From assembly GCA_001871925.1 (NCBI GenBank), contig MNWZ01000167.1, positions 1-53,754 of the forward strand: DNA of 53,754 nucleotides, written 5' to 3'. Below the pieces are notes generated by a model. It searched no databases. It was given only the letters and a program-made list of their open reading frames with translations, and had not been told where the DNA came from. Origin of the DNA: Zetaproteobacteria bacterium CG1_02_53_45 (GTDB lineage: Bacteria > Pseudomonadota > Zetaproteobacteria > Mariprofundales > Mariprofundaceae). A program made the position numbers and the translations under genes. Shown one piece after another: positions 2,237 through 19,690 of this stretch (its first letter is position 1; the number at the start of each line of letters is the position of its first letter).

Positions 2237-3445
2237 TTAATTACCGGCAAACAGTGACATGGTGTCGTCAGAAGCGACCGCACTGGCCGTTGAGTCCTTT
2301 AAACGACCCATTTTATGGAAGAAGTCGACACTTGCATCGAATAGTGCGGATGCAAGCAGTTTCTGGTGCTCTCTGGTTTTCAACATCCTTTCCCTCGCCG
2401 GGTTGGAGATATAATCCAGTTCTACCAGCACACTGGGAATTTCCATCGCACTTAACACGGCAAAACGGGCACGTTTGGGTGATGAATATTTGATTGGTCC
2501 GGCATGTTTCATTTTACTGATGACTGTTTCAGCCAGCATATGCGAACTGTTTATACTGTCGGTACGCAGCATCTTGCCGAGAATACTGTTCACCACCGGA
2601 TCATCAATCTGGTCGAAAGCCACGCCACCGACTTCATCAGCGGCATTTTCCTTGGCTGCCAGTGCTCTGGCTGCCTTATCTTCCGTGGCACCGCGATCAG
2701 ACAGTGTATACACACTCGCCCCTTCTACAGTATGTGTTCTGACAGCATCGGCATGAATACTGATCATCAGATCCGCCTTGGCCTTGCGTGCCAATTGCAC
2801 CCGTTTCATCAAGGGTACGAAATAGTCGCCTTCCCTGATCAATACTGCCTTCATACCGGGCGTTGCATCAACAATCTTTGCCAACTCTTTGGCTACAGCC
2901 AGCGTAACCACCTTTTCATACAGCTTGTGCGGGCCAATAGCTCCGGGATCTTCACCACCGTGGCCTGCATCAATAGCAATGATCAGTTCTTTTTGTTTTT
3001 TGCTGACATCGGCAGTGATCGCCTCTTTTTTCGCCTGATCAGGCCGCATCAGGTCGACAACCAGACGAAAGGGTTTACCCTGCATGGGTTTGAGTAAAAA
3101 AGAACGTGGTTGAACCTTCTCTTTCACATCAATCACAAGCCGGAGCATGCCGGTTTTGGGCACTCCGGAGCGAATTTCCTGAATCACCGGGTCAGGTAGC
3201 GACAGCTGGTTCAGTCTGGTTTTCAGCTCAGTCTGCTGCATATCAATGACGATACGTTCCGGATTGTGCAAACGGAACAACTCGTATTCAATCTTGCCGC
3301 TGAGATCGAGAACAAGACGGGTGTGGTCGGGCGCAGTCCACAAGCGGATATCCCGAAGCGCACCGGTATCAGCCTGAGCTGCACTTGAAAACAGCAGCAG
3401 CAGGAGTAATCCGACGATTTTTGAGAAAAACAGGTTCTGTCGCAT
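2237..3445 (-). CDS. amiC: N-acetylmuramoyl-L-alanine amidase (AmiC type) with AMIN domain
   Basis: This secreted zinc amidase of 402 residues cleaves the stem peptide from MurNAc during daughter-cell separation. A signal peptide ends near residue 25 (SSAAQA). An AMIN domain (about 30-130), which targets amidases to the septum, is followed by an Amidase_3 domain (about 155-375). Zinc-ligand and catalytic motifs are visible: DAGHGGEDPG, the glutamate in LYEKVVTLAVA, SIHADA, and VLVELDYISNPAR, where the family glutamate is present. It lies 9 bases upstream of msbA. Such enzymes are usually activated by LytM-domain proteins, none of which is in this window. Confidence 0.9.
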   Translation of the reverse strand: MRQNLFFSKIVGLLLLLLFSSAAQADTGALRDIRLWTAPDHTRLVLDLSGKIEYELFRLHNPERIVIDMQQTELKTRLNQLSLPDPVIQEIRSGVPKTGMLRLVIDVKEKVQPRSFLLKPMQGKPFRLVVDLMRPDQAKKEAITADVSKKQKELIIAIDAGHGGEDPGAIGPHKLYEKVVTLAVAKELAKIVDATPGMKAVLIREGDYFVPLMKRVQLARKAKADLMISIHADAVRTHTVEGASVYTLSDRGATEDKAARALAAKENAADEVGGVAFDQIDDPVVNSILGKMLRTDSINSSHMLAETVISKMKHAGPIKYSSPKRARFAVLSAMEIPSVLVELDYISNPARERMLKTREHQKLLASALFDASVDFFHKMGRLKDSTASAVASDDTMSLFAGN

Positions 3446-3553: not shown

Positions 3554-4969
3554 TTAATTTTTCACACGGCCATAGGTATCTTCAAAGCGTTCGATGTCAT
3601 CTTCATCCAGATAGTCGCCAATCTGCACCTCAATCAACTGCAAGAGCACCCGGCCCTTGTTTTCAAGGCGATGAATTTCGCCGATCGGAATATAGGCGCT
3701 GCCGTTTTTGGCCACAACTTTCACCAGATCGCCACAGGTCACTGTGGCCGTGCCACTGACTACAACCCAGTGTTCTGAACGATGCTGGTGCGACTGCAAA
3801 CTGAGCTTGCCACCCGGATAGACTTCAATGCGTTTGATCGTGTAACCACTTGCTGTTCCCTCAAGCACGGTATAACTGCCCCAGGGTCTGCGCACAGTCA
3901 CATGTTCAAGATGGTATTTCCCTTTACCCAGCTTAAGTTCGTCCACCACATCCTTAACACGCTGACTGTCGCCGACCTTACACAGGAGGATGGCATCGGG
4001 TGTTTCAACAGCAATAATATTTTCCAGTCCGACTGCCGCTATGAGGCTTTTTTCACTGCGCAGCAATGAGCCTTTGCAGTCGATCGCCAGCACATTACCA
4101 CTGATATCGTTACCATTGGCATCATGTTCTGCCATTTCATGCACCGCATCCCAACTACCCACATCGGACCAGCCGATATCAGCCGAGACAAGTGATACGC
4201 GCGACGATTTTTCCATGATACCGTAATCGATCGAAATATTAGGCATCTGGTCAAACATCGTACGGATCACTTCCTGCCACGACTCACCATTATTCCAGCG
4301 CTTACGCATGGATTGCAATATTTCATACACTTCCGGCAGATAGGTGCACATCTCCTCAAGGATCGTGGATGCATTCCAGACAAACATGCCGGAGTTCCAG
4401 AAATAGTTACCGTCAGCCAGCATGCGCTGTGCATTGGCCAGATCAGGTTTTTCGACAAAGCGTAAAACATGCAATACATCGGCATCTTCCGCTTCAGTTT
4501 GTACGTAACCGAAACCGGTTTCCGGATGTTTCGGCACAATGCCGAAGGTCACCAGCTTGCCCTCTTCAGCTGCAGCTACGGCCTTTTTCAGGCACGCCTG
4601 AAAAGCCGCGTGTTTGGTAATAATGTGGTCGGCAGGCAGCACCACCATCACAGGATCTTCCTTGGTCAGATCCTGGAACAGGGCTGCGGCTACAGCAATG
4701 GCAGGTGCAGTATTACGACCGCACGGCTCGAGAATCAGATTCAGGCCATCAAGCTCTGAAAACGCTTCGCCACTGGCATGTGTATCGCCGGTAACCACCC
4801 AGGCATTATCCCGGCTGATCAGCGGACTTAAACGCGAAATCGTGGTGCTTAACATTGAGTCAATGCCGTTAATGTTGAGAAACTGCTTGGGCAACTGCTG
4901 CCTGGACAGTGGCCACAAACGTGTGCCGGAACCTCCGGCCAGAATAACGCCTCTAATCAACTGACTCAT
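3554..4969 (-). CDS. manC: mannose-1-phosphate guanylyltransferase / mannose-6-phosphate isomerase
   Basis: This bifunctional cytoplasmic enzyme of 471 residues makes GDP-mannose from mannose-6-phosphate, as in the AlgA/ManC/XanB family. The nucleotidyltransferase domain (about 7-285) opens with GVILAGGSGTRLWPLSR..PKQFL, the GDP-mannose pyrophosphorylase signature. The C-terminal cupin (about 340-460) has RPWGSYTVLE and SLQSHQHRSEHWVVVSG, which carries the metal-binding histidines of the type II isomerase. It starts at ATG 4969 behind GGAGGGGGA and overlaps the upstream transporter gene by four bases (ATGA), so the two are translationally coupled. Its product could feed the sfz-like polymer, the glycan locus or LPS; the sequence does not say which. 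Confidence 0.93.
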   Translation of the reverse strand: MSQLIRGVILAGGSGTRLWPLSRQQLPKQFLNINGIDSMLSTTISRLSPLISRDNAWVVTGDTHASGEAFSELDGLNLILEPCGRNTAPAIAVAAALFQDLTKEDPVMVVLPADHIITKHAAFQACLKKAVAAAEEGKLVTFGIVPKHPETGFGYVQTEAEDADVLHVLRFVEKPDLANAQRMLADGNYFWNSGMFVWNASTILEEMCTYLPEVYEILQSMRKRWNNGESWQEVIRTMFDQMPNISIDYGIMEKSSRVSLVSADIGWSDVGSWDAVHEMAEHDANGNDISGNVLAIDCKGSLLRSEKSLIAAVGLENIIAVETPDAILLCKVGDSQRVKDVVDELKLGKGKYHLEHVTVRRPWGSYTVLEGTASGYTIKRIEVYPGGKLSLQSHQHRSEHWVVVSGTATVTCGDLVKVVAKNGSAYIPIGEIHRLENKGRVLLQLIEVQIGDYLDEDDIERFEDTYGRVKN

Positions 4970-6345
4970 ACTTGTCCCCCTCCTTCTACTTCTGTTTCAA
5001 CGTTCAGTGCCGCTTCCGATTTTTCAGTCCAGGCTTTAAAACGATTGCTCACATTAAACGTGACAAACACCCAGAGCAGACATAATACGATATTGGTGCC
5101 CACCAGAAATATGGTCGGCAAGGCCAGCACGGAAATCACCAGCATAATCACGCCGCCCTGAATCAGATCACCGAAACGGGTAAAAAACGTATTAATGGCC
5201 AGCATACCTTCATAACGTGTAAAACGGTCCAGTGGCAGAAACAGAATCTGTTTGGTGGTGTTGGCCACAGAATAATCGATACTGTTATCAGCCATTTTCA
5301 CAATGGCAAACCAGGCAAGCACCGGGAATGCAAGTACAGAGACATACATGGCAAGGTTCAGAACAGCCAGGCTGATCAACGCGCCCCCGACGCCAATCGC
5401 CTGATATAGCGGACGCACCACAAATGCCTGCAGTACCAGAGTGGCGATATTCACGTAGAGATAGAAATTTGCATAAAACGCACCGATCTCATCTCCACTT
5501 TTCTCACCTGTTACAAAATCCGCCAGAATAAATTCGCCGGTAGAGTTGATCAGGTTCAGCAGTACCACGGAAGCCGCAATCCAGCGCAGGTAGGAGGTGT
5601 CAAACACCCGTTTGAGACCGCCCAGCAGATGCGAGATGGATTCATCATCTGAATGGCTTGCCGATTCCTTGCGCATCGAGGTATTGGTGGTCGGTATCAG
5701 CACTGCAACCACCAGCATGACACTGGCCAGTACCATCAGCCCGTAAGATCCCAGTTGCAGATACATAAACTTGGCAACCATCGCACCGATCATCGCACCC
5801 AGCGATCCACCAATGGCGATGTAGGAGGTCAGTCGCTTGCCGCTTTCCACACAGTGGTAATCACTGACCATGGTCCAGAACTGTGAAATCTGCAATACAG
5901 AGAAAATGCCCAGCCAGATAAAAAACGGTACCCCGATGTCATAACCGGCCGAACCGAGGAAATAGAACAGCATAATGTTGCTGGCCAGAAAGATCGTTAC
6001 AGCATGGAACAGTTTGTCGCCTTGCAGGTGCTTTATAATATGACTGTAAAACGGTACCAGTATCAGCAGCAGAGCTGCCTGACCGGCCAGTGCATAACTG
6101 CGGATCACGGCGCTGCCGCCATCAAGAATCAAACCTTCACGCACAGGTTTCATCAGATAATAGGCAAGCAGGATTAAAAACAACCGGACAGCAAACTGGA
6201 AGGTCGCCTTGCCTTCCGGACTTTTAAAATCACTCCAGATTTTGCCTGTTAAATTCGCCAAAATATCCCCACACCACCAATACTTGCCTGTATATCCATG
6301 CTCTGTCAGTGCAACCTCAATCACAGCGACGGCCATTCCAATCAT
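4966..6345 (-). CDS. Npt1/Npt2 (ATP/ADP antiporter)-like membrane transporter
   Basis: This polytopic inner-membrane protein (up to 459 residues, about 12 hydrophobic helices) carries the phrase YYLMKPVREGLIL in its first helix. That phrase is typical of bacterial members of the nucleotide-transporter (TlcA/Npt) group within the major facilitator fold. In obligate intracellular bacteria this family exchanges ATP and ADP; the substrate in free-living bacteria is unknown. The ATG at 6345 gives an unusual 30-residue extension. An in-frame TTG inside ILANLTG, with GGGGA just upstream, is a possible alternative start. It overlaps manC by four bases. Confidence 0.7.
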   Translation of the reverse strand: MIGMAVAVIEVALTEHGYTGKYWWCGDILANLTGKIWSDFKSPEGKATFQFAVRLFLILLAYYLMKPVREGLILDGGSAVIRSYALAGQAALLLILVPFYSHIIKHLQGDKLFHAVTIFLASNIMLFYFLGSAGYDIGVPFFIWLGIFSVLQISQFWTMVSDYHCVESGKRLTSYIAIGGSLGAMIGAMVAKFMYLQLGSYGLMVLASVMLVVAVLIPTTNTSMRKESASHSDDESISHLLGGLKRVFDTSYLRWIAASVVLLNLINSTGEFILADFVTGEKSGDEIGAFYANFYLYVNIATLVLQAFVVRPLYQAIGVGGALISLAVLNLAMYVSVLAFPVLAWFAIVKMADNSIDYSVANTTKQILFLPLDRFTRYEGMLAINTFFTRFGDLIQGGVIMLVISVLALPTIFLVGTNIVLCLLWVFVTFNVSNRFKAWTEKSEAALNVETEVEGGGQV

Positions 6346-6494: not shown

Positions 6495-9400
6495 TCAGAA
6501 CGGACTGCAAGCCACGAAGCGCTGCTTGCGACCGGATGTTATCGGCACATTCGTTGCCTTCAGTGTATTGGCATACTCATTCACTTCAGTTTTCACCGGT
6601 TTCCAGCGATTGCCGTCATACATCCACAACTCAAGCTTGTCCTCATGCACCGATACCGACACTTCGGTCCTGCGGGAGTTCTCCTGCAAATATTCAACCA
6701 TCAAATCGGCTGTAGTTGAAACATTCGGCTCCACCGAGAGAACCCATGAGCGCTGAATACAACGCATGGCAGAATAACCGGATGGCAAATATTTCGGTAC
6801 CTTGCCGCCTTCGATATCCAGTTTCACTTCTGTTGTGGATGCTACCGGATGCTTCAGCACCAGTTGCCCTGCAAACAGCCCCCAGCCTTCATCCGTCATA
6901 TAAATGGAGTCGTGGCCCTGCTTGATAAAACCATGCCCATACAGTTCGGCCGGCAGTGGCCAGTCAAATATCGCCGGGGCTTTGGGATCCACCGGTGTCC
7001 ACCTGTAACTGCCAAACAGCTTGCGGGCCAGGAAGTTGTCATGCGCCGTCACAAAATACATCAGCGATTCATAAACCTTGGTGAACTCCTTTTCACCGTA
7101 AGTAATGAAGTTATCCTTATACAGCTCTTTGCCGACTACCGAGGCAAGATTACCGATACGCGCATGCATGACAGTTGGAGAAAACCAGCCGAAAGTATCT
7201 TCCGGACCATTTGCTTCAATGCCCAGCAGATGTTTAATTTTTTGTTCCAGACGATAACGCAGGCGCGGATTATGCAGCGTCTTGTCTTTCAGTGGATTAC
7301 TCACGCCCACATCCGGCGGGTAGTAGTACTGGAAGTTATCATTCCAGATTTTATACGGCTTTTCGGTAAACGGATCGTATGTACGTCCGAATGTCAGATT
7401 GTAGTCCCACGGAATCACCGTCCACTTGTTCAGCGTGGGATCACGGTGTAACCAGTAATTTTTGTTATAGGTATCACCATCGGAAACCAGGCCGTTGACG
7501 GCAACCCAGTTGATCACCGATTCATCGTCAAACTCTTTGGCCAGTACCGTATGCATTTCATCGACACGCGCCTGGCTGACAACCCTGGCCATCGCACGCA
7601 GTGAATCATAATTTTTATCCTGCGGCGTAATTTTATCAAAACAGAACTCCATACGGTCAGAGCTGTTCAAATCACCGCAGAATGAGGCATCAACCGGCTG
7701 ATAAAACTCACCCCTTAGATCCATATTATTGGCAGCAAGAAACTCAGTGCCCATCCATTCAACCGACAGGAACAGTCCGACCCGTTTGCCCTCATTGAAC
7801 GTCGCCCTGACCAGATGCACTTCCGGCACCTTCATGCCCATGGCCGCCATCAGTTTCCAGGCCATCCATTCACGCATCATCACTTTATCCGAAGCCATGG
7901 AACGTAACGCAATCCTGCGATGCCCGTACCAGCGGCTGCCCTCTTTATCCAGCTTGATCAACAGTGACTTCTTGTCGAATACGCGCGTCGAACTACCGAG
8001 CACAGTAATCGTACCCAACAAAGTTTTTTCCACCGTATGACCCTTGGTTCTCATCTGGATATCGAACTCGGAGTGATCATAAAGGCCTTTTTTGAACACG
8101 GCATCCAGATAGTCATCGTCCATATTGATATACAGCTCTTCAACCGGAACCTTGTAGAGGGCCTGCTCCAGTGCCGCATAAGAGAAGTTGAAGGGCTGCC
8201 CGTGCGAAATCCTGCTGCGATACTGTTCAATATTATGTTTATCGATGATGTGTAAACCGGTTGCTGCATGTTGTACCGGCTCAATCTCTTTCAACAGATC
8301 AATTTTTATCCAGCCGACATTTTTGCCATCCACCTGCGGGTTGATACGGGCCCAGCCGTCACGGCGCTGTAGCAATGCAACGTTATCACCTTTGGCAACC
8401 CAGCTATTGATTTCAGCCTCATCACTGGCATCTACGCGCAACGTTGAAGTTTTCAGCACCTCAAAGACATCTCCGCTCTTTGCCCCGTTCAGGTTTGCCG
8501 GTGCATTTTTACTTTCTTCAGCTTTGGCTCTGGCCAGGACCTCAATTGATGTCGTTTCAGCCTCTACCAGATCGTTGTTAAACACCCAGCCCACTCTGCC
8601 GCTGAGCGTCATGCGCACCAGACTCCACTCACCCTTGCGCTCAACTTCGGAAGCAGTCTCGTTGCGTGCACCCCAGGCCACGACGTCGTACTGTTTTCCG
8701 GGGGCAGCCCGCAAATTAGTTGTCTGTTTGAAGAAATAGAGTTTCCCTGCCTGGCGTTCTACCTGTGCCACTTCTTGCACGACTGCAGGTGAATCGACAG
8801 TGGATGGCGCTGCTTTTGCAACCAGTTTTGTAGCACTCCTGTGCACCCAGCCGATGCGCTTGCTTTGCTGCATCTGAACCTTGATCCACTCACCGCGGGA
8901 GTCCAACTGATTGGCGAATGCACCGATTCCAGCCCAGGAGACGATATCAAATTTCGCATCAGGGCCGGCACGCAGGTTGGCTTTGGCGGAAAAGCTGATG
9001 AGATCTGTCTGAGGCAATGTTTTGTCTGCAACCTCAGACGTCTGAGTTTCTGCAGACTGAGCAGATTGCCCATCCGCACTGATGGCAATCATCGGTTGTG
9101 CAGTCTGAGTCTCTTTAGACTGTAGCGTTTCCGGCTGAACTGCAGCTGCGGGTTCTGCAGCCTCCTGCGAAACCGGTGCAACCGGCTCAAAAGCTGCGGA
9201 ATCAATCCAGCCGACACGACCACTGTCCAGCATACGCACTTTCAGCCAGGAGTCCTGCTGTGCCAGTACAGCTACCATGGCTCCGCTACCGGCCCAGCCC
9301 AGCATCTCTGACATTGCCCCGGGTGCTGAACGCATCGTTGTTGTTTGCAGCAGTTGCTTTTCGCCTATGCCAGCAGCTGACTGCTGTGGCACTGGCACTT

Positions 9401-10910
9401 CCTCTTGCGCTGCTGCTACAGGCACAGTCGTTGCTGCAGGCTGAGCTTCAACCACGGAAGTGGCTGTCGGTGCAACAGCATCAACCGGTTTTATCGCGCT
9501 GCGATGCACCCAGCCCATGCGTTTACTTTCCTGCAGCTGCACCTGAATCCAGTCGCCACTGGTCTTCAGCTCATTGGCATATGCTCCGGCAGTGGCCCAT
9601 GTTACAACATCAAACTTCACATCAGGACCGGCGCGCAGATTTGCATTATTGGAAAAGAGCAGACTGTTAGTGGCCGATGATTCGCTTCCCGGAACCACAA
9701 CATTCTGTTCCTGCAGTGCTGCAGGGGCCTGTTCGCCTGTACTGATGACGACCGGCATCGGTTCACTGGCACTATCTTCAATCGGTGCAGTAGCTAGCGC
9801 TTCTGATTCACTCTTATTGAGCTGACTCTCTGCAGCTATTGATTTTTCTCCAGCTACAGGAGCATCTGACTGCGGTGCGGCTTCAGCCGCCTGTAGCGCA
9901 GGCTCAGTCATTTGCGCGGCCACTTCAGGAGGTGTTACTTCTGCCTGAGCGATCGGCGCCAGTTCATCAGCCGCCGGTGCAACAGGTTCTGCCAATTGCG
10001 TTTCTGCCTTGAGCGCCGGTGCTTCCGCCTGAGTGGTTTCTACTGCAGAAGCGCCACCCGTATTGAATACCGTAACCGCACCATCATTACTCTGCGTATC
10101 CACTGCAGGAAGAGCAACGGCTTCATCCGTACCGGTTTCAGCAACAGAGGATTCCACCGCTGTTGTATCGGCAGCAACCGGTTCCGGTTTAACTACAACC
10201 ACATCTGCCTGCGGGAGTGATGCTGTCTCTTGCGCAGCTAATTCAGGAGCACTCTCCTCAGCCTTTGCGACCACATCAGGCTCAGCTTCCACTGCATTGC
10301 TCACAGTCACCTGTTTCTCTACTGCCTGTGTATCAACCGGTGTTGTTTCGACAACCACGGGTTCAGTTTTCGTGGAAACCTCGACCGACTGGGAAACAGC
10401 AACTGCCTGCAAGGCATCGGCCTCAATCCAGCAGACTCTGCCGCTATCTGTCATTCGCACTTTCAACCACTGACCCTGCTGTTCCAGAGTCTCAATTCCG
10501 GCACCTGTACCGGCCCATCCAAGCACATCATAAAGTGAGCCGGGGCCTGAACGGATCGTCGTGGTTTTTGCAATACGGGTTGCTTTATCTCCGGCCGCCG
10601 TCGGCATATCAACTGTTTCAACGGCTGTAAGCTCAGGCTCCTGCAGGAGCGCAACTGCCATAACCGGCTGTTCCATCTCGACTACAGTTTGATCCGCTGC
10701 ACTGGCAACAGGCCCGGCTGCTGATGCAATAACTACAGTGCTGTTCAGTTCAAAGACTTCCACGCCACTGGCTGCCTGCTGTTTCTCATTTGCTGTAGTA
10801 ACTGCCAACTGATCGACATCACCCTCTGCTGCAAACAGCAGGGCACTTGCAGTCACTGTCATAATAGACAGTGCTGCAATTCGGACGAACAGGGATTTTC
10901 TATCAATCAT
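6495..10910 (-). CDS. sfz6: giant secreted protein: six bacterial SH3 repeats plus CotH-type kinase domain (sfz6-like)
   Basis: This 1471-residue protein starts at ATG 10910, after the stop of the upstream gene and behind GGAGAG; a longer frame would run into that gene. A signal peptide ends near residue 28 (SALLFAA). Six SH3_3-type repeats follow at about 115-167, 420-473, 522-575, 640-693, 727-780 and 817-873. They share the pattern LR.GP..FDVV.W ... GWV and are linked by Ala/Val/Glu/Pro/Thr-rich spacers, the longest about 170-415. Residues about 920-1230 look like a CotH-family atypical kinase, with HRRIALRSM and IPWDYNLTFGRTYD, the latter resembling the metal-binding DWD-like motif. SH3 repeats suggest peptidoglycan binding. 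Phosphorylation of matrix components is an inference. It is the last gene of the operon and corresponds in position to sfz6 as I recall it. Confidence 0.82.
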   Translation of the reverse strand: MIDRKSLFVRIAALSIMTVTASALLFAAEGDVDQLAVTTANEKQQAASGVEVFELNSTVVIASAAGPVASAADQTVVEMEQPVMAVALLQEPELTAVETVDMPTAAGDKATRIAKTTTIRSGPGSLYDVLGWAGTGAGIETLEQQGQWLKVRMTDSGRVCWIEADALQAVAVSQSVEVSTKTEPVVVETTPVDTQAVEKQVTVSNAVEAEPDVVAKAEESAPELAAQETASLPQADVVVVKPEPVAADTTAVESSVAETGTDEAVALPAVDTQSNDGAVTVFNTGGASAVETTQAEAPALKAETQLAEPVAPAADELAPIAQAEVTPPEVAAQMTEPALQAAEAAPQSDAPVAGEKSIAAESQLNKSESEALATAPIEDSASEPMPVVISTGEQAPAALQEQNVVVPGSESSATNSLLFSNNANLRAGPDVKFDVVTWATAGAYANELKTSGDWIQVQLQESKRMGWVHRSAIKPVDAVAPTATSVVEAQPAATTVPVAAAQEEVPVPQQSAAGIGEKQLLQTTTMRSAPGAMSEMLGWAGSGAMVAVLAQQDSWLKVRMLDSGRVGWIDSAAFEPVAPVSQEAAEPAAAVQPETLQSKETQTAQPMIAISADGQSAQSAETQTSEVADKTLPQTDLISFSAKANLRAGPDAKFDIVSWAGIGAFANQLDSRGEWIKVQMQQSKRIGWVHRSATKLVAKAAPSTVDSPAVVQEVAQVERQAGKLYFFKQTTNLRAAPGKQYDVVAWGARNETASEVERKGEWSLVRMTLSGRVGWVFNNDLVEAETTSIEVLARAKAEESKNAPANLNGAKSGDVFEVLKTSTLRVDASDEAEINSWVAKGDNVALLQRRDGWARINPQVDGKNVGWIKIDLLKEIEPVQHAATGLHIIDKHNIEQYRSRISHGQPFNFSYAALEQALYKVPVEELYINMDDDYLDAVFKKGLYDHSEFDIQMRTKGHTVEKTLLGTITVLGSSTRVFDKKSLLIKLDKEGSRWYGHRRIALRSMASDKVMMREWMAWKLMAAMGMKVPEVHLVRATFNEGKRVGLFLSVEWMGTEFLAANNMDLRGEFYQPVDASFCGDLNSSDRMEFCFDKITPQDKNYDSLRAMARVVSQARVDEMHTVLAKEFDDESVINWVAVNGLVSDGDTYNKNYWLHRDPTLNKWTVIPWDYNLTFGRTYDPFTEKPYKIWNDNFQYYYPPDVGVSNPLKDKTLHNPRLRYRLEQKIKHLLGIEANGPEDTFGWFSPTVMHARIGNLASVVGKELYKDNFITYGEKEFTKVYESLMYFVTAHDNFLARKLFGSYRWTPVDPKAPAIFDWPLPAELYGHGFIKQGHDSIYMTDEGWGLFAGQLVLKHPVASTTEVKLDIEGGKVPKYLPSGYSAMRCIQRSWVLSVEPNVSTTADLMVEYLQENSRRTEVSVSVHEDKLELWMYDGNRWKPVKTEVNEYANTLKATNVPITSGRKQRFVACSPF

Positions 10911-10915
10911 GTTGT

Positions 10916-11851
10916 TTAGTCTCTCCACCTGTAGCTCGCGCCAATACCGGCAAACCATGAAACCGGAGCATTACGTCCGAAAAGTGCTTTGCCGATCAGA
11001 GCATTTGCACTCCATCCGGTCCCCATAAAGGAGTGTGAATAACTGAGCTGAATAGAGGTTTGATCCGAACTGGTCATAGCGGCAGGTGCCTGATTGACAA
11101 AAACCTGATTCTGTACGCCGCCACGTGCAAATCCGATGCTGTTAATCAGACTCAGACTGAAGAAATCACCGGTTCTGACAAAGTCCGTTTCAGTTAACGC
11201 ATACTGGATTGTCACATCTGATCGTAATGTATTGCCTTTACCGCTGAAGAAATAGGTGAATTTTGAGCCGGCTTTCCAGCCCCATTTCCTGGAGTTCACA
11301 CCCCAGGTTCTGAACGGAAAATTATGCGTGGGGTCGGATGAGAGCAAAACGCCCAAACCTGCGCCAAGCGTTCCTTTACCAATGGCTGACGGATTACCGT
11401 TGTCGTAACCTGTCGGAATAATCATAAATGCTTCCCATGCAGCACTGTCCAGATAGTTGCCGGAAAATCGTGTCCTTACGCCCAGCTCCACATCTCCCAG
11501 GCCGGTATTCCTGCCGGAAACTTGTACGCCGGGGCCACGAAGACCTACTTGCCCGCAACGACGGTGGCCCATACCCAAATTGGCATATACCGTATGAAAA
11601 TAGGACCAGCCGTATTCATAGCCGAGTGTCGCACCGATATTTCTGATCTTGCAGATATTGGTGATCACATTACGCGACACATCCCAATGTTTATTGGCAG
11701 CGGTATAACTCAGATTGGTCGACACCATACTCTCGCCCTGCTCCAGCATGCCAACCCCGGCTTCAGCCTTGCCCGACATAACCAGCATCGCTGTGAATAG
11801 CGCAGCTACAATCGTCATCGGTTTTCTGTTGTTTACTATCACTAACCTCAT
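10916..11851 (-). CDS. sfz5: outer-membrane beta-barrel-like protein (sfz5-like)
   Basis: This 311-residue protein is chosen to start at ATG 11851 (MRLVIVNN) because GGGGAAGGGG lies just upstream and the start falls after the stop of the preceding gene. A signal peptide ends at MSGKAEA. The remainder alternates short amphipathic strands and turns, with segments such as GLGDVELGVRTRF and AFMIIPTGYDNGNP. These resemble the Phenol_MetA_deg/transporter-like outer-membrane barrel family, and the protein ends in a strand with aromatic residues (YRWRD). No BcsC- or AlgE-type porin is encoded nearby, so this is a candidate export channel for the polymer. That role is inference; the family only supports an outer-membrane location. 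Confidence 0.7.
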   Translation of the reverse strand: MRLVIVNNRKPMTIVAALFTAMLVMSGKAEAGVGMLEQGESMVSTNLSYTAANKHWDVSRNVITNICKIRNIGATLGYEYGWSYFHTVYANLGMGHRRCGQVGLRGPGVQVSGRNTGLGDVELGVRTRFSGNYLDSAAWEAFMIIPTGYDNGNPSAIGKGTLGAGLGVLLSSDPTHNFPFRTWGVNSRKWGWKAGSKFTYFFSGKGNTLRSDVTIQYALTETDFVRTGDFFSLSLINSIGFARGGVQNQVFVNQAPAAMTSSDQTSIQLSYSHSFMGTGWSANALIGKALFGRNAPVSWFAGIGASYRWRD

Positions 11852-11865
11852 ATACGCCCCTTCCC

Positions 11866-12882
11866 CTATGACTTCCAATAGCGTCTTATAACTTGTTCAG
11901 CCGGTTTATTTTGCGGCGTAAAATCCGCATCAGCTGCCCCACCTGATGTGATATCGCTGTACCAGGCCCAGATAAACAGACCACTCACCCATGGTTTATC
12001 CAGTGCTCTCAACCAGATATCCAGTGCATCCCGTTGCAGATTCAGATCGACTTTTGCATTTTTTAACGACTGCCACTCCCAGGGCCTGGCTGAAGCCCCG
12101 GCAGCCGAAGGCATACCGACCTCCAAGACCCATAATGGCCGTTTGATCTCAACTACTGCCAGACGGAGTTCTTCAACAGCTTTATCGACATAAACCTGCA
12201 TCTCCTCTTTTGTGCCTGTTTCCCCCAGAGAGGGGTACATGGTCAAGGCAACCGCATCGAGTAACTGCCAGTGCGGGAATGCTTTCACACCTTCAATATT
12301 ATGTGCCGCATAGGTTAATACAATCGGCTCAGGAAGCACTTCGCGTAACTGGGCGATCAGTTTAGGCCATGGCGCATGTCTGGCGGCATGAGTCAGCTCC
12401 GTACCGATAACAAAAGCATCAATGCCTTGTCCTGATACAAAGCGGGCGCATTCGATAACCCGCTTTGAGTAACTGTCGAACCATGCCTGCCAGCTATACG
12501 GGTCGGCATGATTGATGGCCCCTGCCCATGAACCGGGAACAAGCATCTGCGGTTTTATCGTCACTTTCAAACCGGCTTCGCGGGCATAGCGAATAGCGGC
12601 CTGCAACTGAACATCGGTCACAGCGGCTGACTTTCTGACTTCAAGAGAATTGGTTTTCTCCTGCTCCAGAAAGGGAATAAACACAACCGCATTGGATCCG
12701 ATCGCTGCAAGCTGCTGTATCGATTTGCGTGACTTCGGATCATCCCAACCGGTATTTTTATGCTGCAATGCATTAAAGCCGCGCAGCATCTGCTGATTTT
12801 TCAGACCATCCCCGGCACAGCCCATGACAAGCAATGATGCCATGATCGCCATGGATACAAGTACAAAAGTAGGCTTACGCAC
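11866..12882 (-). CDS. sfz4: glycoside-hydrolase-like lipoprotein, TIM-barrel type (sfz4-like)
   Basis: This 338-residue protein starts at GTG 12882, which has AGGAAG upstream, overlaps the end of the preceding gene by 8 bases, and gives a clean lipoprotein signal (hydrophobic stretch ending LLVMGC). The mature part begins GFNALQHKNTGW and continues as a (beta/alpha)8-like chain. Two candidate catalytic glutamates sit where clan GH-A enzymes have them: FVIGTELTHAARH (acid/base, strand 4) and LWVLEVGMPSA (nucleophile, strand 7). It resembles GH113-type and other mannanase-like enzymes, but the exact family is uncertain. Periplasmic hydrolases in polysaccharide-synthase operons trim or release the polymer, which is the likely role here. 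Confidence 0.72.
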   Translation of the reverse strand: MRKPTFVLVSMAIMASLLVMGCAGDGLKNQQMLRGFNALQHKNTGWDDPKSRKSIQQLAAIGSNAVVFIPFLEQEKTNSLEVRKSAAVTDVQLQAAIRYAREAGLKVTIKPQMLVPGSWAGAINHADPYSWQAWFDSYSKRVIECARFVSGQGIDAFVIGTELTHAARHAPWPKLIAQLREVLPEPIVLTYAAHNIEGVKAFPHWQLLDAVALTMYPSLGETGTKEEMQVYVDKAVEELRLAVVEIKRPLWVLEVGMPSAAGASARPWEWQSLKNAKVDLNLQRDALDIWLRALDKPWVSGLFIWAWYSDITSGGAADADFTPQNKPAEQVIRRYWKS

Positions 12883-14377
12883 CGATCTTCCTGTATACCC
12901 GCCAGCCCAGGCTGTCGTAAACAAGCCGGAAACCATCCATACCATGGTTATACAGATGCGGATAACGAATATTCAGCCAATCGCGTCTGCCTGCTACTGA
13001 ATGAGGTTCAGGCACGGCAATCTGCTGCACATTCGGATGACGTTCACGCATGGCCGATTTGAAATCGTGTGAAAAAGATAACACCAGTCCCTCGGCATTA
13101 CCTCTGGCAGCAATCACTCTGGAAGCGGTTCTCTCGTACATCAGCGTTGGCAATGGATTCTTTTTCAACCACAAGCCAACCTGCAAATCACCATCCAGAC
13201 TGGAATCCGGACTCTGTTTGCCGGTAAGCGCCTGCACCCATTGCGACATTTGCGGGTTGGCTGTTTCGATAAACAGCCACCAGCCGCCGACCACACTGAC
13301 CACCATAAACAGAATCAGAAATGCGAATTCGCGGCGCGTCTGCATGCGCACATAGGTCAACTCAGCCATAAGGCCCGCACTGATCAGCGCCAGAATTTCA
13401 AACGGATGGGTCAGATAGTACTGGCTGGTCGCAATTGCGATGGCGATCAACGGATGCAGCAGCAACACAAACGAGGCCCGGAAGCGGTAGTTGTTGTTGA
13501 TCGTATCCAGTAACAGGTAAACCGATACAGGATAGGCAATCAGCAGGTAACCGGTTGCAGCCAGCAACGGCTTGAAGAACTGACCGCCAAAATCCAGCAA
13601 CCACGGGTAATCCTGAATATGCAGCATACCACCGAGGAACATTGAATCTGCATGCTCAATAAAGTGCATGAAGGAACCTTCAAAAATCCAGTTCAGATAC
13701 GCCCATGTGGCAACAGCAAATGCAAACGGCGTACCTACAATCAGGTATAGGCCCATCGGTGATACCATGATCGTGCGCAACGGTGCAATCACCACCAGCA
13801 GCGGAATCAGCGCCACAAAAATAAACACCGCTGAGCCATCAATAAAGAAGAAAAACACAAAGGTGACTGCCATTGAAATATAGGAGTGGATGTCATGGTC
13901 AGAAATAATATGCTGGGATGCACGGTAGAGCAGATAAAACGCAACCATACTCAGGGCGATATGGGAGCCCGATGTTGCCGCCCACAAAAAGCCCGGATGA
14001 ATCACCACCAGCAAGCCAAGCAGGGCCAGTCTGGTCTGGCTAAGTTTCACCTCTTTCAGGTGGTGTCCCCAAAGAAACAGCAGGACAGCCGATGCCATGA
14101 TCGACAGCAGGTAGGGTGCAGCGCCACCGTCCAGGCCCGGTATATAATAAAACGGCACCAGCAAATAGAGCGGCAAATGGGGCGCGAGGAAGGTAAAGTT
14201 TTCAAGCACAACCTGCTCAGCGCCTAAAGCCGCAATAACCGTTGCCCAGCGACTGACAGCACTGTCTGACATGAAGCCATGAGCCAGCAGCCAGATAGTC
14301 ACACCTGTCACCATCAAGACCAGCAAAGCCAGAAACAGCTTACCTTCCAGACCGGTTCTACTTACAAGCTGTCTCAT
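12875..14377 (-). CDS. sfz3: polytopic membrane protein of unknown function (sfz3-like)
   Basis: This 500-residue protein has roughly 10-11 hydrophobic helices in its first ~390 residues and a soluble C-terminal domain of about 110 residues (from TGKQSPDSSL to VYRKIGA). The fold pattern of a helix, a long loop and many helices, with an extracytoplasmic-looking tail, resembles GT-C membrane glycosyltransferases. I see no convincing catalytic acidic motif, so I do not assign activity. It overlaps the upstream synthase gene by four bases (ATGA) and the downstream glycosidase gene by eight, so it is firmly part of the operon. It corresponds to the gene reported as of unknown function in the sfz cluster. 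Confidence 0.75.
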   Translation of the reverse strand: MRQLVSRTGLEGKLFLALLVLMVTGVTIWLLAHGFMSDSAVSRWATVIAALGAEQVVLENFTFLAPHLPLYLLVPFYYIPGLDGGAAPYLLSIMASAVLLFLWGHHLKEVKLSQTRLALLGLLVVIHPGFLWAATSGSHIALSMVAFYLLYRASQHIISDHDIHSYISMAVTFVFFFFIDGSAVFIFVALIPLLVVIAPLRTIMVSPMGLYLIVGTPFAFAVATWAYLNWIFEGSFMHFIEHADSMFLGGMLHIQDYPWLLDFGGQFFKPLLAATGYLLIAYPVSVYLLLDTINNNYRFRASFVLLLHPLIAIAIATSQYYLTHPFEILALISAGLMAELTYVRMQTRREFAFLILFMVVSVVGGWWLFIETANPQMSQWVQALTGKQSPDSSLDGDLQVGLWLKKNPLPTLMYERTASRVIAARGNAEGLVLSFSHDFKSAMRERHPNVQQIAVPEPHSVAGRRDWLNIRYPHLYNHGMDGFRLVYDSLGWRVYRKIGA

Positions 14378-16461
14378 GGTTTCGCACCAGAGCCTGATGC
14401 TGCAGGACGAGCAGCGGATTTAGCCGCAGCCCCCATATCATGCGTCACCTCAAATGTGGTCAGGCCGTGATGGGTTTTTTCCCAATAGAACGGATTATGA
14501 ATCAACTGCCAGAAACCTTTGTAACCGGCCCATGATTGCAGCAGCCAGTACAGCGGGACCGTCAAGGCCCATGGAATCAGTGAAAAATAACGTCGTTTGA
14601 ATCCACTGAGCATAAACAGGTAGATCAAAAAGCCATTGGCAATAAGCAGGTTGAACAGGGTGATATAGAGTACAACCGGCGGAAAATAGGGATCAAACAT
14701 CGTCGTACTGGTACCCAGCCAGAGGATATACATAAAGAACATAACCGGCGTCAGCAGCGCACTGACAATCGTACCGCCAATGAAAAACTGAAAGCCCCAG
14801 AACCCGACAAAACCAAGCTTCCCGTAAAGCTTGATCGGACTGCGCATATGCACGAGGTAACTCTGCATATATCCCTTCAACCAGCGCGAGCGCTGGCGAA
14901 TCCAGTTCGGAATAGAGTTATTCGCCTCTTCAAACGTTGTGGAGTTCAATACACCCACACGATAACCGGCCTGTGTCAGGCGCACGCCAAGGTCGCAGTC
15001 CTCTGTAACATTGTACGGATCCCAGCCTTCCATTTCACGCAGCACATCCATTTTAAAGTGATTGGAAGTGCCTCCTAGCGGAATCGGAATGCGCAGGGCA
15101 TCAAGTGCCGGCAGGTAAAAATCAAACCAGAGCGAGTACTCCATGGTAAACATTCGGGTCAGCCAGTTTTCCGCCACATTGAAGTAGTTAAGCCTGGCCT
15201 GAATCACCGCTGTGTTTTCCGGAGCTTTCCTGAACGCGATGACGGCTTTTTTCAGCTGATCCGGCTCCGGCGCATCCTCTCCGTCATAAATGGTTGCCAA
15301 TTCACCACGGCAGAAGTGCAGAGCGTAGTTACAAGCCTTCGGTTTGGTTTTAGGCAGCGAGTCAGGTACCCGGATAATCTCGAAAATGCCTTCCAGCCCC
15401 AGCTCTTTGGCCTTATCAATGGTCTCGTCATCATCGTGTTCGAGAATCAGCTTGATATCAAGTTTGGAGAGCGGATAGTCAATCGAACGCAGTGCCTGGG
15501 CAATATTCGGCAGGGTTGCCGCTTCGTGGTACATCGGCAGCAAAATCGAATATACAGGCAGTGAACGCTCATCAACGGCCAGCACTTCTTCATCCGTCAC
15601 CAGATTATCAAAGTGTTTATCACCGCCAACCCAGGTAAGCACAATACGCAGGCCGAAGTTCAACAGAAGGAAGACGGAAATAAGTACATTAAACAGCACC
15701 AGCGAATTTACCGGCCAGATTGTCACGGTGATCACACTAAAGGTCATCCAGATAAACAGGAAAATAATCTGTTTCGCCGTGAACACCTCACTGGCAGAAA
15801 ACTCAGGTTTGCTATTGGCCAGTTCATGTACCGATTTTTCAGTATAAAACTGATTCCCGATCTCCTGCAGCACCCAGATAATGTCGAACTTCGATGTAAT
15901 AACGATATCAAAGGGCTCGCCCACCAGTTGATCCACCATTCTCAACAGCTGTGGATTGACATCCACCACGGCCACCTTGAGCAGGCCGCCCTGGCGACGC
16001 CACGGCACAAACAGGTTTCCTGAATAGATGGAGAGACTGTCACGATCAATCAGCGACTCATCAATGCGATCACGCAACAGATCAACGTTAGGCTTTTCGA
16101 AATGTTCGGACAGCGTCTTACCCAGCACGTATGGCTTCACCCAGCCTCGGGCCTGGATAATATCCCCGAGCCGCGTGCCCCAGTGCTTTTGAGTCTCAAC
16201 GGCTTCTAACAACTGCTTTTCAGTAATCAGTTCCCGTTCAAGCAAGAGGTCGCCAATACGTCCTCTGCGGAAATGATCGGTCAAAGCATCGTAGAAATCG
16301 ACAGCGCTTACCCAGCCCTTTGCCAGGAAAATATCGCCCAACCTTCCACCTTCTAATTTCTGGAGAAGCAGTGCCTGCTCCAACTGGTCATTGCTGATGA
16401 GCCCACGGCCCATCAGCAATTCACCAATTCGAGGCTTAGCCCCCCCTCCGGACTGGCTCAT
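14374..16461 (-). CDS. sfz2: BcsA/NfrB-like processive glycosyltransferase with N-terminal MshEN-type modules (sfz2-like)
   Basis: This 695-residue inner-membrane synthase begins with two tandem modules (about 11-65 and 68-121) of the pattern RIG.LL...LI...QL..A...Q...G.RLGDI, typical of MshEN/T2SS_E N-terminal domains, some of which bind c-di-GMP. Helices at about 230-275 precede a GT2 domain (300-530) with EHDDDE (341), YDGEDAPEPDQ (392), TEDCDLG (486) and QRSRW (523), the D,D,D,QxxRW set of processive synthases. More helices follow (about 550-645). There is no PilZ domain. NfrB-type proteins combine the same parts. The sugar donor cannot be read from the sequence. It starts 8 bases after the BcsB-like gene and should be its partner. 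Confidence 0.87.
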   Translation of the reverse strand: MSQSGGGAKPRIGELLMGRGLISNDQLEQALLLQKLEGGRLGDIFLAKGWVSAVDFYDALTDHFRRGRIGDLLLERELITEKQLLEAVETQKHWGTRLGDIIQARGWVKPYVLGKTLSEHFEKPNVDLLRDRIDESLIDRDSLSIYSGNLFVPWRRQGGLLKVAVVDVNPQLLRMVDQLVGEPFDIVITSKFDIIWVLQEIGNQFYTEKSVHELANSKPEFSASEVFTAKQIIFLFIWMTFSVITVTIWPVNSLVLFNVLISVFLLLNFGLRIVLTWVGGDKHFDNLVTDEEVLAVDERSLPVYSILLPMYHEAATLPNIAQALRSIDYPLSKLDIKLILEHDDDETIDKAKELGLEGIFEIIRVPDSLPKTKPKACNYALHFCRGELATIYDGEDAPEPDQLKKAVIAFRKAPENTAVIQARLNYFNVAENWLTRMFTMEYSLWFDFYLPALDALRIPIPLGGTSNHFKMDVLREMEGWDPYNVTEDCDLGVRLTQAGYRVGVLNSTTFEEANNSIPNWIRQRSRWLKGYMQSYLVHMRSPIKLYGKLGFVGFWGFQFFIGGTIVSALLTPVMFFMYILWLGTSTTMFDPYFPPVVLYITLFNLLIANGFLIYLFMLSGFKRRYFSLIPWALTVPLYWLLQSWAGYKGFWQLIHNPFYWEKTHHGLTTFEVTHDMGAAAKSAARPAASGSGAKP

Positions 16462-16469
16462 AGCAGCGA

Positions 16470-18896
16470 TTACCTTTTCTCATCAAGATGGTCCAGTGAG
16501 TCACCCGGATGAACAGTGTAGTCATCATGCATATGAGCTGCAGAAGTACCCTGCATGCGCGCTTCCTCAGCCTGATAAAGCGCATCATCTTCCTCACGGG
16601 CAACCTTGTTGGCTCTGGACATACGATAGAGGTATACCACAACCATGGTCAGCAGGAACCACAACAGCACCATCAGCCAGAAACGATATTTACCCAACAC
16701 ATCGAACCAGTCTTCCACATCAGGGTAATAGACCTGTGCCAGCGATGGTTCCCGGCTGTTAAGGGTTTTAATAACACCCATGGAGTCGATAAAGGCTACA
16801 TCGTCTTCTGTCAGTTCAAGGCGTTCCATTACAGCGATATCGGATGCATCGGACGGGTTGACCCACAGACCGTATGCCGCCGGTGCTTTGACAATCTCTG
16901 CAACGGTGATACTGGTCAGTTCGCTGACATCAAAATAGGACGAGCCATTTGGTGAGAGAATTTTCACACGACCGCGATCAAAGCGTACAGGTGCCTGCAT
17001 ATCGTCAGCCAGGGCAAAGTTACCCACTGCCACAAACGGATTCGTCGGACTCAGCACATCACCTGCACCGGCAAACGTCAGTCTGGTGTGATCGATCAAC
17101 AGCGGGAAATCTGCCGAAAGTCTGGCCAGCAGATGCAGTGCACGTTCGGGATTCTGCAGGAATGACGTTTCAAGATAAGTATCAAAGCCCTGCGAGAAGT
17201 AGTTGGTCAGGTCCGAGAACTTGGTCGGTGCAGCATCATCATTCTTTTTCACCACCAGCGCACTGTCCGGCGTAATCTGGATGTAATCGTGAGGCATCAC
17301 GCCACGGCAGTCGCCCTGCTCCACATCATGCTGCACAACGATACGGATATCATTGTACTGCTTCTGATATTCAGACGGCAAATTGATGGTAAAATTCTTT
17401 ACCAGACCGCTATTTTCCAGTCGGGCTGACTTCACCATGACGTCATTCAGGAACACGTACATTTCAAAAGTCGGATCATTTTCCCAACGCACCGGCGCAA
17501 TAATATTCAGGCTCAGGAAGTCAGGTCTGGTTCCAACAGGCAAGGTGAATGGTGGAATCACCATCTGCCAGCTGGCTTCACGCGTAATGTATTTCACACC
17601 CGGCTCAAAACCGAGCTTGGACAATGGCAGAGAGTAATAGCCGGCGTCGCCCTGCTCGCCCAACAAACCGAGCTTGATGCGCAGATCATCCGGCCTGTAA
17701 ACACGGTAACCCTGGCCTGCACTGAGCAATTTCCATTCATTGCTCAGCAGATACATCGGCTGCACATCATAGGGGTCGGTAACAACGATCGCAGTGCGGT
17801 GCTGCAGATTAATCAATGCAAGGTTGCTGACATGATCCAGCGCCTTGCCCATATCGGCAACCAATCCATCTTCACCGATGCTCAGACGCTTCTGGTCAAT
17901 CATCCGTTCCAGTTCGGTTTTTGGTGCAACAACGATATCGCCCACTTCCGGCAGGCGTTTGATGGTAACTTCTTTGCCATCTTCAACCAGCAGCGCCATC
18001 AAACCAAGCGTAGAGGCGAACTGGCCCTGACTCAGATTGCCTTCGGAAATACTGATCGCAACATTCTGTGGCAGCATACGCCACGCATCACGAATAGAAC
18101 GTTCTACCGACTGGTAGGAAATCGTCAGTGATGATTCAGGCAACAGATGCAGGAACGCGCCACTGATGCGGTCATCAAAACAGCGGTCTTCTGTAACCAG
18201 CAGTGTGCTGCGGATTTCGACTTTTGCATTTTCACCATGAAATGCGGAGGCCGGCAACATCACATCCAGTTCATGCAAACCACCATCAGGAGATAGGCTT
18301 ACCTGCTTGTAAGGCTTGCCGTTGACAGTAACACGAAGGTTTGATTTTTCGTGCACATCAGGAGAAGCGCGATACAGCAGTCTGAATTTGCCGCCTGTGA
18401 TTCTGCTGTCCAGTGGTGAATCAAAGAAGAATGACTGGGCGTGCGTGCCTGCAGTTCCCTCAAACATGATGCCATTCTTGAATCCCTTATCGAGCAGGGA
18501 GACCTGTCTGGATGTTGTATTGATATCTGCCTCTTCCACGACGGCTTCGGATTTGACTGTCACTGCCTTGGCTGCAGAGGAAGACGTCTTTTGCACTGTG
18601 CTTTTGGCTCTCGGCTTATGAACTTGCGAGGCCTGAATCCAACCCTGGGCACCCGTACTTTTCACTGCTACAAAAACCCAGGAACCCTGTCTCTCCATCT
18701 CAACCATTTGATCGCCGCCACGCAGCCCAACGAGTTTCGAAGACGTTGAAGACGGACCGGCATATAACGACGCGTTTGAAGGCGTCACCTGCAAACGATC
18801 ACCAATTTCGGCCTGTGCAACTGAAACATCAAAAGCCATAATCAGTAACATTGCCATAAATATAGTTTTTATTTTTTTCAATAAGAATACATTCAT
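16470..18896 (-). CDS. sfz1: BcsB-like periplasmic synthase subunit with N-terminal SH3 domain (sfz1-like)
   Basis: This 808-residue protein has a signal peptide ending at SVAQA (about 29) and an SH3-type domain at about 30-92 (NASLYAGPSSTSSKLVG to GWIQASQV). After a Ser/Lys/Val-rich linker comes a BcsB-like region (about 140-720) with the jelly-roll-type segment SFFFDSPLDSRI...LRVTVNGKP and the CFDDRISGAFLHLLP segment. One C-terminal transmembrane helix (about 739-759) anchors it next to the synthase, as in BcsB, and a charged cytoplasmic tail of about 50 residues follows. BcsB guides the nascent glycan through the periplasm. The extra SH3 domain is not usual in BcsB and suggests peptidoglycan contact. 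It is the first gene of the operon, with a promoter about 60 bases upstream. Confidence 0.86.
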   Translation of the reverse strand: MNVFLLKKIKTIFMAMLLIMAFDVSVAQAEIGDRLQVTPSNASLYAGPSSTSSKLVGLRGGDQMVEMERQGSWVFVAVKSTGAQGWIQASQVHKPRAKSTVQKTSSSAAKAVTVKSEAVVEEADINTTSRQVSLLDKGFKNGIMFEGTAGTHAQSFFFDSPLDSRITGGKFRLLYRASPDVHEKSNLRVTVNGKPYKQVSLSPDGGLHELDVMLPASAFHGENAKVEIRSTLLVTEDRCFDDRISGAFLHLLPESSLTISYQSVERSIRDAWRMLPQNVAISISEGNLSQGQFASTLGLMALLVEDGKEVTIKRLPEVGDIVVAPKTELERMIDQKRLSIGEDGLVADMGKALDHVSNLALINLQHRTAIVVTDPYDVQPMYLLSNEWKLLSAGQGYRVYRPDDLRIKLGLLGEQGDAGYYSLPLSKLGFEPGVKYITREASWQMVIPPFTLPVGTRPDFLSLNIIAPVRWENDPTFEMYVFLNDVMVKSARLENSGLVKNFTINLPSEYQKQYNDIRIVVQHDVEQGDCRGVMPHDYIQITPDSALVVKKNDDAAPTKFSDLTNYFSQGFDTYLETSFLQNPERALHLLARLSADFPLLIDHTRLTFAGAGDVLSPTNPFVAVGNFALADDMQAPVRFDRGRVKILSPNGSSYFDVSELTSITVAEIVKAPAAYGLWVNPSDASDIAVMERLELTEDDVAFIDSMGVIKTLNSREPSLAQVYYPDVEDWFDVLGKYRFWLMVLLWFLLTMVVVYLYRMSRANKVAREEDDALYQAEEARMQGTSAAHMHDDYTVHPGDSLDHLDEKR

Positions 18897-19565: not shown

Positions 19566-19608
19566 TAAAAAAGAAAAGGCGGACACTCTTTGAGTATCCG
19601 CCTTTTTC
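19566..19608 (-). terminator. intrinsic terminator of tRNA-Asn
   Basis: A perfect-looking stem of GGCGG with the remainder paired (GGCGGATACTC / GAGTGTCCGCC, one G-U type position) and an AAAG loop lies at 19578-19602. It is flanked by A- and T-runs on both sides (CCTTTTCTTTTTT on the minus strand). It sits 13 bases past the tRNA 3' end. The symmetrical flanks mean it could also stop plus-strand transcription. Confidence 0.85.
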
Positions 19609-19614
19609 TCTGTA

Positions 19615-19690
19615 TGGCTCCCTGAGCAGGACTCGAACCTGCGACATATGGATTAACAGTCCACCGTTCTACCAACTGAACTATCAGGGA
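19615..19690 (-). tRNA. tRNA-Asn (anticodon GTT)
   Basis: The 76-base gene folds as a standard cloverleaf. The acceptor arms TCCCTGA and TCAGGGA pair over 7 bp, the D arm contains AGTTCAGTTGGTAGAAC, the anticodon loop is CTGTTAA with GTT (asparagine), and the T arm contains GGTTCGAGTCC. The discriminator base G and a genomically encoded CCA end follow. It stands alone, with a terminator just downstream, and lies between the divergently oriented sfz-like operon and the kinase gene. Confidence 0.97.

Follow-up and report, generated by a model that had tools for sequence, protein, structure and literature searches.

The locus described here is the sfz1-sfz6 cluster, already published as a candidate for stalk formation, carried by a Mariprofundus that is closely related to M. 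micogutta ET2. As the cluster itself is known, the most interesting remainder is an apparent swap between two sequence types of the cassette, type I and type II, together with the double-cluster strain ET2. Twisted iron stalks serve as candidate biosignatures in ancient rocks; no gene has yet been shown to make them, and sfz is the leading published candidate. Our comparison adds a predicted c-di-GMP receptor within the synthase itself, an intact hydrolase of the mannanase family that narrows the guess at the polymer, and what looks like a natural whole-cassette swap between stalk and dread formers. With two cluster types that track stalks versus short 'dread' minerals, the genetics of these iron structures becomes testable.

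Identity and layout of the sfz locus

Koeksoy et al. (2021) derived sfz1-sfz6 from a pan-genome study that set 11 stalk-forming isolates against 5 stalkless ones (PMC8250860). An earlier sequence-only reading of this DNA had cited that study, accurately, and had matched six genes to it. Within the window, i.e., the whole analysed stretch of 53,754 nucleotides, all six ORFs were indeed found at 6495-18896 on the minus strand, adjacent and in the published order (Table 1), and order, lengths, domains and flanking cassette agree with the publication (PMC8250860). The published lengths are 2051-2084 bp (sfz2), 1499-1535 bp (sfz3), 971-1037 bp (sfz4), 929-983 bp (sfz5) and 3311-7352 bp (sfz6) (PMC8250860). 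The genes of the window fit these ranges, with sfz2 measuring 2088 bp with and 2085 bp without its stop codon, and sfz4 1080 bp as the longest ORF or about 1017 bp with a better start. Similarly, the flanking TLC-ManC-amidase-MsbA cassette matches the published series of ADP/ATP antiporter, phosphomannose isomerase, amidase and MsbA-like exporter (PMC8250860). Sfz1 to Sfz6 share 58, 78, 68, 55, 49 and 45% identity with M. ferrooxydans PV-1 and 69-87% with ET2; relative to the minimum of 50-70% used in the paper, Sfz1, Sfz5 and Sfz6 fall slightly under versus PV-1 and well over versus ET2. The six-gene order is conserved in every complete Mariprofundus locus that we examined and is hence not due to chance. 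The sfz genes have later been taken as stalk markers (PMC12607638, PMC10734462, PMC10734525); we found no knockout, expression or polymer-chemistry result in the sfz literature, and their role in stalk making is a published hypothesis of a correlative nature.

Table 1. Position, strand and predicted product of the sfz genes and their neighbours in the window
Feature	Position	Strand	Length	Product or evidence
sfz1	16470..18896	-	808 aa	SH3-like N-terminus + BcsB-like periplasmic subunit
sfz2	14374..16461	-	695 aa	two tandem MshEN (putative) + membrane-embedded GT2
sfz3	12875..14377	-	500 aa	polytopic membrane protein, GT-C fold predicted (low-confidence model)
sfz4	11866..12945	-	359 aa	lipoprotein glycoside hydrolase, GH113
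sfz5	10916..11878	-	320 aa	predicted 12-strand outer-membrane beta-barrel, signal peptide
sfz6	6495..10958	-	1487 aa	six SH3b repeats + CotH kinase domain, secreted
TLC-type ATP/ADP transporter	4966..6345	-		PF03219 5.9e-7; kept downstream of sfz6 in relatives
ManC (mannose-1-P guanylyltransferase / mannose-6-P isomerase)	3554..4969	-		PF00483 4e-50, PF01050 6e-44, PF22640
AMIN + Amidase_3 peptidoglycan amidase	2237..3445	-		PF01520 1e-42
MsbA-like ABC exporter	449..2227	-		PF00664, PF00005
tRNA-Asn(GTT)	19615..19690	-		ARAGORN; Rfam RF00005; sfz1-side boundary of the sfz locus

When the longest ORFs are taken, the successive gaps from sfz1 to sfz6 are 8, -4, -71, -13 and -43 bp. Better starts, each with a plausible signal sequence, exist for three genes, and sfz4, sfz5 and sfz6 probably begin at GTG 12882, ATG 11851 and ATG 10910, respectively, which brings every sfz junction within about 14 bp. 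The tight spacing reported by the sequence-only reading is thereby borne out, but not its limit at sfz5: the sfz5-sfz6 gap is 5 bp with the better starts and the tight packing thus takes in sfz6.

The position of the tRNA-Asn gene is shared by many type I loci and by both dread-type loci. Directly after this gene, a strong hairpin of 15 pairs with a subsequent T-run is present at 19574-19606 (minus strand), which leaves a leader of ~680 bp to sfz1; with the exception of this element, promoter and terminator scans gave results at chance level. Beyond the tRNA gene, a CHASE2-Ser/Thr kinase and a PP2C phosphatase (19897-23075, plus strand) are transcribed away from sfz. The pair is kept at the sfz locus in ET2, OFTM123, KV, EBB-1 and others; none was seen within about 5 kb upstream in PV-1 or P3.

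Building blocks of a predicted exopolysaccharide machine

We propose that the operon probably codes for an exopolysaccharide machine of the synthase-dependent kind, gated by c-di-GMP, which produces the organic fibrils for the Fe(III) stalk and exports them, with type I in stalk formers and type II in dread formers. Its core would be the pair Sfz1-Sfz2. Sfz1 shows the BcsB domain (PF03170, 3.8e-18), hydrophobic segments at 3-21 and 739-757, corresponding to an N-terminal signal and a C-terminal TM helix, and a weak match to TIGR04211 at 43-120. Upstream of sfz1 in PV-1, an ORF (L049:3713-5473) repeats 249 Sfz1 residues at 100% identity, reflecting either recent duplication or an artefact of assembly.

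Sfz2 combines Pfam matches to GT2 (PF13632, 9e-21) and MshEN (PF05157, 3.7e-9), the latter part also being covered by two stretches of NF053729 (3.9e-32; 109.8 bits versus a cut-off of 38). Half-motifs starting at 11, 40, 68 and 97 form two MshEN double motifs (11-34/40-63 and 68-91/97-120), each with the canonical spacer of five residues that recurs in orthologues; the second half-motifs end in H instead of Q in most orthologues. The GT2 motifs are TED at 486 and QRSRW at 523, and TED and QxxRW are invariant among full-length orthologues. PDB profile matches comprise MshE (5htl), PilF (6f8l) and BcsA (7lby/4hg6), as well as PilF/PilB N-terminal domains. Judged by its sequence, Sfz2 is composed of two tandem MshEN domains, putatively binding c-di-GMP, ahead of a processive GT2. 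Koeksoy et al. (2021) took the N-terminal part for a secretion (T2SS) ATPase (PMC8250860); we reject a T2SS-type or translocation ATPase, as no ATPase domain is present. The published c-di-GMP site RxxxR (522-526) overlaps the GT2 motif QRSRW. In E. coli NfrB, MshEN fused to GT2 activates polysaccharide synthesis upon c-di-GMP binding (PMC8669469), and by this likeness a c-di-GMP switch would hold for the GT2 of Sfz2 as well.

Neither Pfam nor PDB-sequence profile searches returned anything for Sfz3, which has about eight hydrophobic segments, in line with the polytopic protein of the sequence-only reading. The ten best Foldseek matches of its AF2 model in the PDB are all of GT-C type (STT3, ALG12, ArnT, AftA and PglB among the best), with TM scores of 0.27-0.53 for a model with a pLDDT of 64. 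A GT-C enzyme would be expected to conserve a catalytic acid in its first periplasmic loop; residues 33-63 contain a nearly invariant E59 and no invariant Asp or Glu, and D180 and E339 are invariant. With low confidence, the model predicts that Sfz3 is a glycosyltransferase with a GT-C fold.

Sfz4 carries a GH113 domain (PF22612, 1.9e-39; 136 versus a cut-off of 27 bits) and aligns with the Alicyclobacillus endo-beta-1,4-mannanase 4cd6/3civ. Its residues E183 and E275, invariant across 23 homologues, correspond to E151 and E231, which we take to be the catalytic pair of AaManA. Based on this alignment, Sfz4 belongs to GH113, the beta-mannanase family, with both catalytic glutamates present, and not to GH10 as assigned by Koeksoy et al. 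(2021) (PMC8250860). Nearly all orthologues possess a lipobox-like cysteine. The presence of GH113 beside ManC points to a mannose-containing beta-glycan, albeit weakly, because ManC is not restricted to stalk formers (PMC8250860).

In the case of Sfz5, there is no Pfam match; its AF2 model (pLDDT 68) has 12 strands, and Foldseek ranks the COG4313 channel 4rl8 (9e-12) and FapF (5o65-5o68) best. A 12-strand outer-membrane barrel is thus predicted at low confidence; the earlier reading had likewise named an outer-membrane barrel. Sfz5 is not a universal exporter, because betaproteobacterial stalk formers reportedly lack sfz5 and sfz6. In Sfz6, Pfam finds SH3_3 in six stretches (PF08239, 4e-40) and CotH (PF08757, 4.4e-43). 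The BcsB-like, BcsA-like, GH-like and SH3-CotH products of the sequence-only reading accordingly have their Pfam counterparts in BcsB, GT2, GH113 and SH3_3 plus CotH.

What the data show directly is gene content, domains, catalytic residues, synteny, distribution and phylogeny. From these parts we infer a route from inner membrane via periplasm and outer membrane to the surface, and likewise the identity of the polymer, its export path, the order of action and the role in stalk or dread shape. Binding of c-di-GMP to the tandem MshEN of Sfz2 would switch on the inner-membrane GT2, which would polymerise a beta-linked chain and extrude it to BcsB-like Sfz1 in the periplasm. GT-C-type Sfz3 may add a side-chain sugar, with a polyprenyl phosphate as donor, and lipid-anchored Sfz4 may trim or edit the chain. 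Sfz5 would serve as outer-membrane pore, and outside the cell Sfz6, with its SH3b repeats and CotH kinase, could hold or phosphorylate the emerging polymer. Finally, Fe(III) would be deposited on the exported fibrils as stalk.

Distribution and two cluster types

We analyzed 78 genomes of the class, 23 from the genus of the window and 55 others. Sfz2 is present in 19/23 genomes of the genus, Sfz3 and GH113 each in 17/23, and all three in 1/55 others (G002, from another family), GH113 occurring within the class solely at sfz loci. Sfz5 is found in 17/23 and additionally in G002 and G018. Sfz2, Sfz3, Sfz5 and GH113 thus track each other across genomes. Some absences fall in fragmented MAGs, the two genomes with Sfz2 only have contigs cut at their ends, and the sfz1-6 synteny is complete within the genus wherever contigs allow. 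No sfz genes were detected in G021 (presumed Ghiorsea TAG-1). In G018, of another zetaproteobacterial genus, sfz1-, sfz5- and sfz6-like genes are adjacent on a short contig (L111), with no sfz2-4 between them. In a sample of 398 genomes from across the phylum, the Sfz3 profile matched outside the class in G352 alone, which encodes distant Sfz1, Sfz2 and Sfz3 in order (24, 50 and 22% identity) and, close by on the other strand, GH113; the N-terminus of its Sfz2 lies outside the MshEN motif pattern we used, yet Pfam finds MshEN.

Type I clusters occur in M. ferrooxydans PV-1, M. micogutta ET2, M. erugo P3, EBB-1 and KV; they are confined to known stalk formers or unphenotyped genomes and were found in no genome of other genera of the family. 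The expectation attached to the sequence-only reading, that sfz occurs in stalk formers only, is therefore borne out in part. It stands for type I among these genomes and fails for the cluster as such, since a complete and collinear set of the six genes occupies the canonical locus in G046 and G048 (presumed dread formers CP-5 and CP-8), with tRNA-Asn on the sfz1 side and TLC-ManC-amidase-MsbA on the sfz6 side. Given these presumed dread formers and the uncultured members with six genes, possession of sfz cannot be equated with stalk formation; what counts is the cluster's sequence type, and any claim of stalk specificity needs this distinction. For CP-5 and CP-8, more distant homologues of all six genes with <40% identity were published (PMC8250860). 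We measured 42-44, 65, 48, 45-46, 28 and 42% for Sfz1 to Sfz6 between PV-1 and G046/G048, a range of 28-65% that exceeds the printed <40% for most of the proteins, implying that either the measure of the paper differs or our naming of the two genomes is wrong.

A general adhesive exopolysaccharide under c-di-GMP control, i.e., a holdfast or biofilm matrix of benthic Mariprofundus on which minerals nucleate with other genes setting their shape, would share the MshEN-GT2, BcsB and GH domain logic of biofilm polysaccharides and would account for a syntenic cluster in presumed dread formers; a holdfast role has also been proposed by the published authors (PMC8250860). We nevertheless consider it quite unlikely, given that Sfz2 and Sfz3 are so rare among zetaproteobacterial genomes outside the genus and that, in the small number of strains with a known phenotype, stalk and dread go with different cluster types. 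The stalk-fibril machine proposed above stays our preferred reading.

Types I and II form separate clades with support of 100. The type II clade comprises G046/G048, the second clusters of ET2 and of the MAG OFTM123, both of which carry the two types, and the MAG 131-447 bin 005; the source genome of the window (86% complete) shows type I only. Both second clusters are devoid of the tRNA and of the TLC cassette. Within ET2 the two types share 51% identity in Sfz3 and 24% in Sfz5, and the ET2 type II proteins are 67-78% identical to the CP-5-like ones. Type II Sfz6 is about 680-690 aa long (843 in bin 005), with a CotH domain and without SH3 repeats, of which the scanned type I Sfz6 proteins have 4-9 and that of G002 three.

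In the rpoB tree the CP-like genomes fall beside KV, G053 and the ET2 group, among type I species (support 96), and the TLC+ManC tree from the same locus agrees (97 and 100). Constraining the CP-like Sfz1-3 to join KV/G053 lowers the log-likelihood by 1357 units (p-AU 1.8e-52). Since the flanking genes follow the species tree and the sfz genes do not, the simplest account of these trees is an apparent in-place replacement of type I by type II in the CP lineage. The literature describes which strains form stalks, dreads or filaments (PMC8250860, PMC5513912, PMC6443915). The match between type and stalk or dread shape comes from few phenotyped isolates that share ancestry; with two type-II-only phenotyped genomes, it effectively amounts to one evolutionary event. 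Tentatively, the two types may be ancient interchangeable cassette versions that set mineral shape, type I giving long anchored twisted stalks and type II short shed dreads, with the pelagic dread formers having swapped in place next to tRNA-Asn. Somewhat less likely in our opinion, the split would mirror mere species divergence devoid of functional meaning and the type II cluster of ET2 would be an unrelated duplicate. The low number of phenotyped strains leaves room for this explanation and a single replacement event would suffice, but the two ET2 types lie far apart, the second resembles the CP-5-like proteins, the split predates the species and the SH3 repeats are consistently missing in type II. 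M. micogutta ET2, which has both types, is inconsistently described with respect to its mineral form. We found no mention of the swap or of the ET2 double cluster in the sfz literature.

OFTM123 also has a partial type II cluster, its third sfz cluster, on a short contig (L116, G057:C24), running from the end of sfz3 to sfz6. Just downstream of its second cluster lies a Phage_GPA replication gene (L043:12074-13699, 7e-85), a hint of a mobile context. The idea that the second ET2 cluster sits in an AT-rich island was dropped, as the low GC came from masked N bases.

Comparison with known polysaccharide and stalk systems

Similar to the BcsA-BcsB cellulose synthase, sfz pairs a GT2 synthase with a BcsB periplasmic subunit. 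These BcsB-like and BcsA-like subunits, and the match of the Sfz2 GT part to BcsA in the PDB, could speak for a variant bcs operon that makes cellulose. Such a reading is highly improbable, however: the hydrolase stems from the beta-mannanase family, Sfz2 scores 47 bits with the NCBIfam CelA model, far under the cut-off of 699, and, as the sequence-only reading had noted, the components PilZ, BcsC and BcsZ (GH8) are absent. PilZ is missing from the synthase and the cluster (five PilZ genes are found elsewhere, on other contigs), no GH8 domain occurs among the cluster products, and BcsC_C was not found in the source genome at its 86% completeness. Within the genus, a BcsC-type exporter domain occurs in EBB-1 and AMOR20_M1282 only (G052:C46, G064:C121), possibly as part of a separate cellulose-like system.

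The NfrB-NfrA system of E. coli, producing the NGR polysaccharide, shares with Sfz2 a membrane GT2 combined with MshEN (PMC8669469). In NfrB the MshEN is C-terminal and the GT2 N-terminal, whereas the order is reversed in Sfz2; BcsB, GH113 and CotH partners are missing and the exporter NfrA is unrelated. With 39 bits against a cut-off of 1170 for the NfrB NCBIfam model, Sfz2 falls outside the NGR system.

Betaproteobacterial stalk formers have homologues of sfz1-4 only (PMC8250860). In the freshwater stalk former Ferriphaselus, the sfb/xag-like cluster (bcsB-xagB-xagC-xagD) is reported to comprise homologues of sfz1-sfz4 (Kato et al. 2015, PMC4643136), without sfz5/sfz6 and with <40% identity by the account of the 2021 paper (PMC8250860). 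The closest counterpart is the sfz cluster of Koeksoy et al. (2021) itself, which shares gene order, lengths, domains and flank with the window and shows no structural difference from it.
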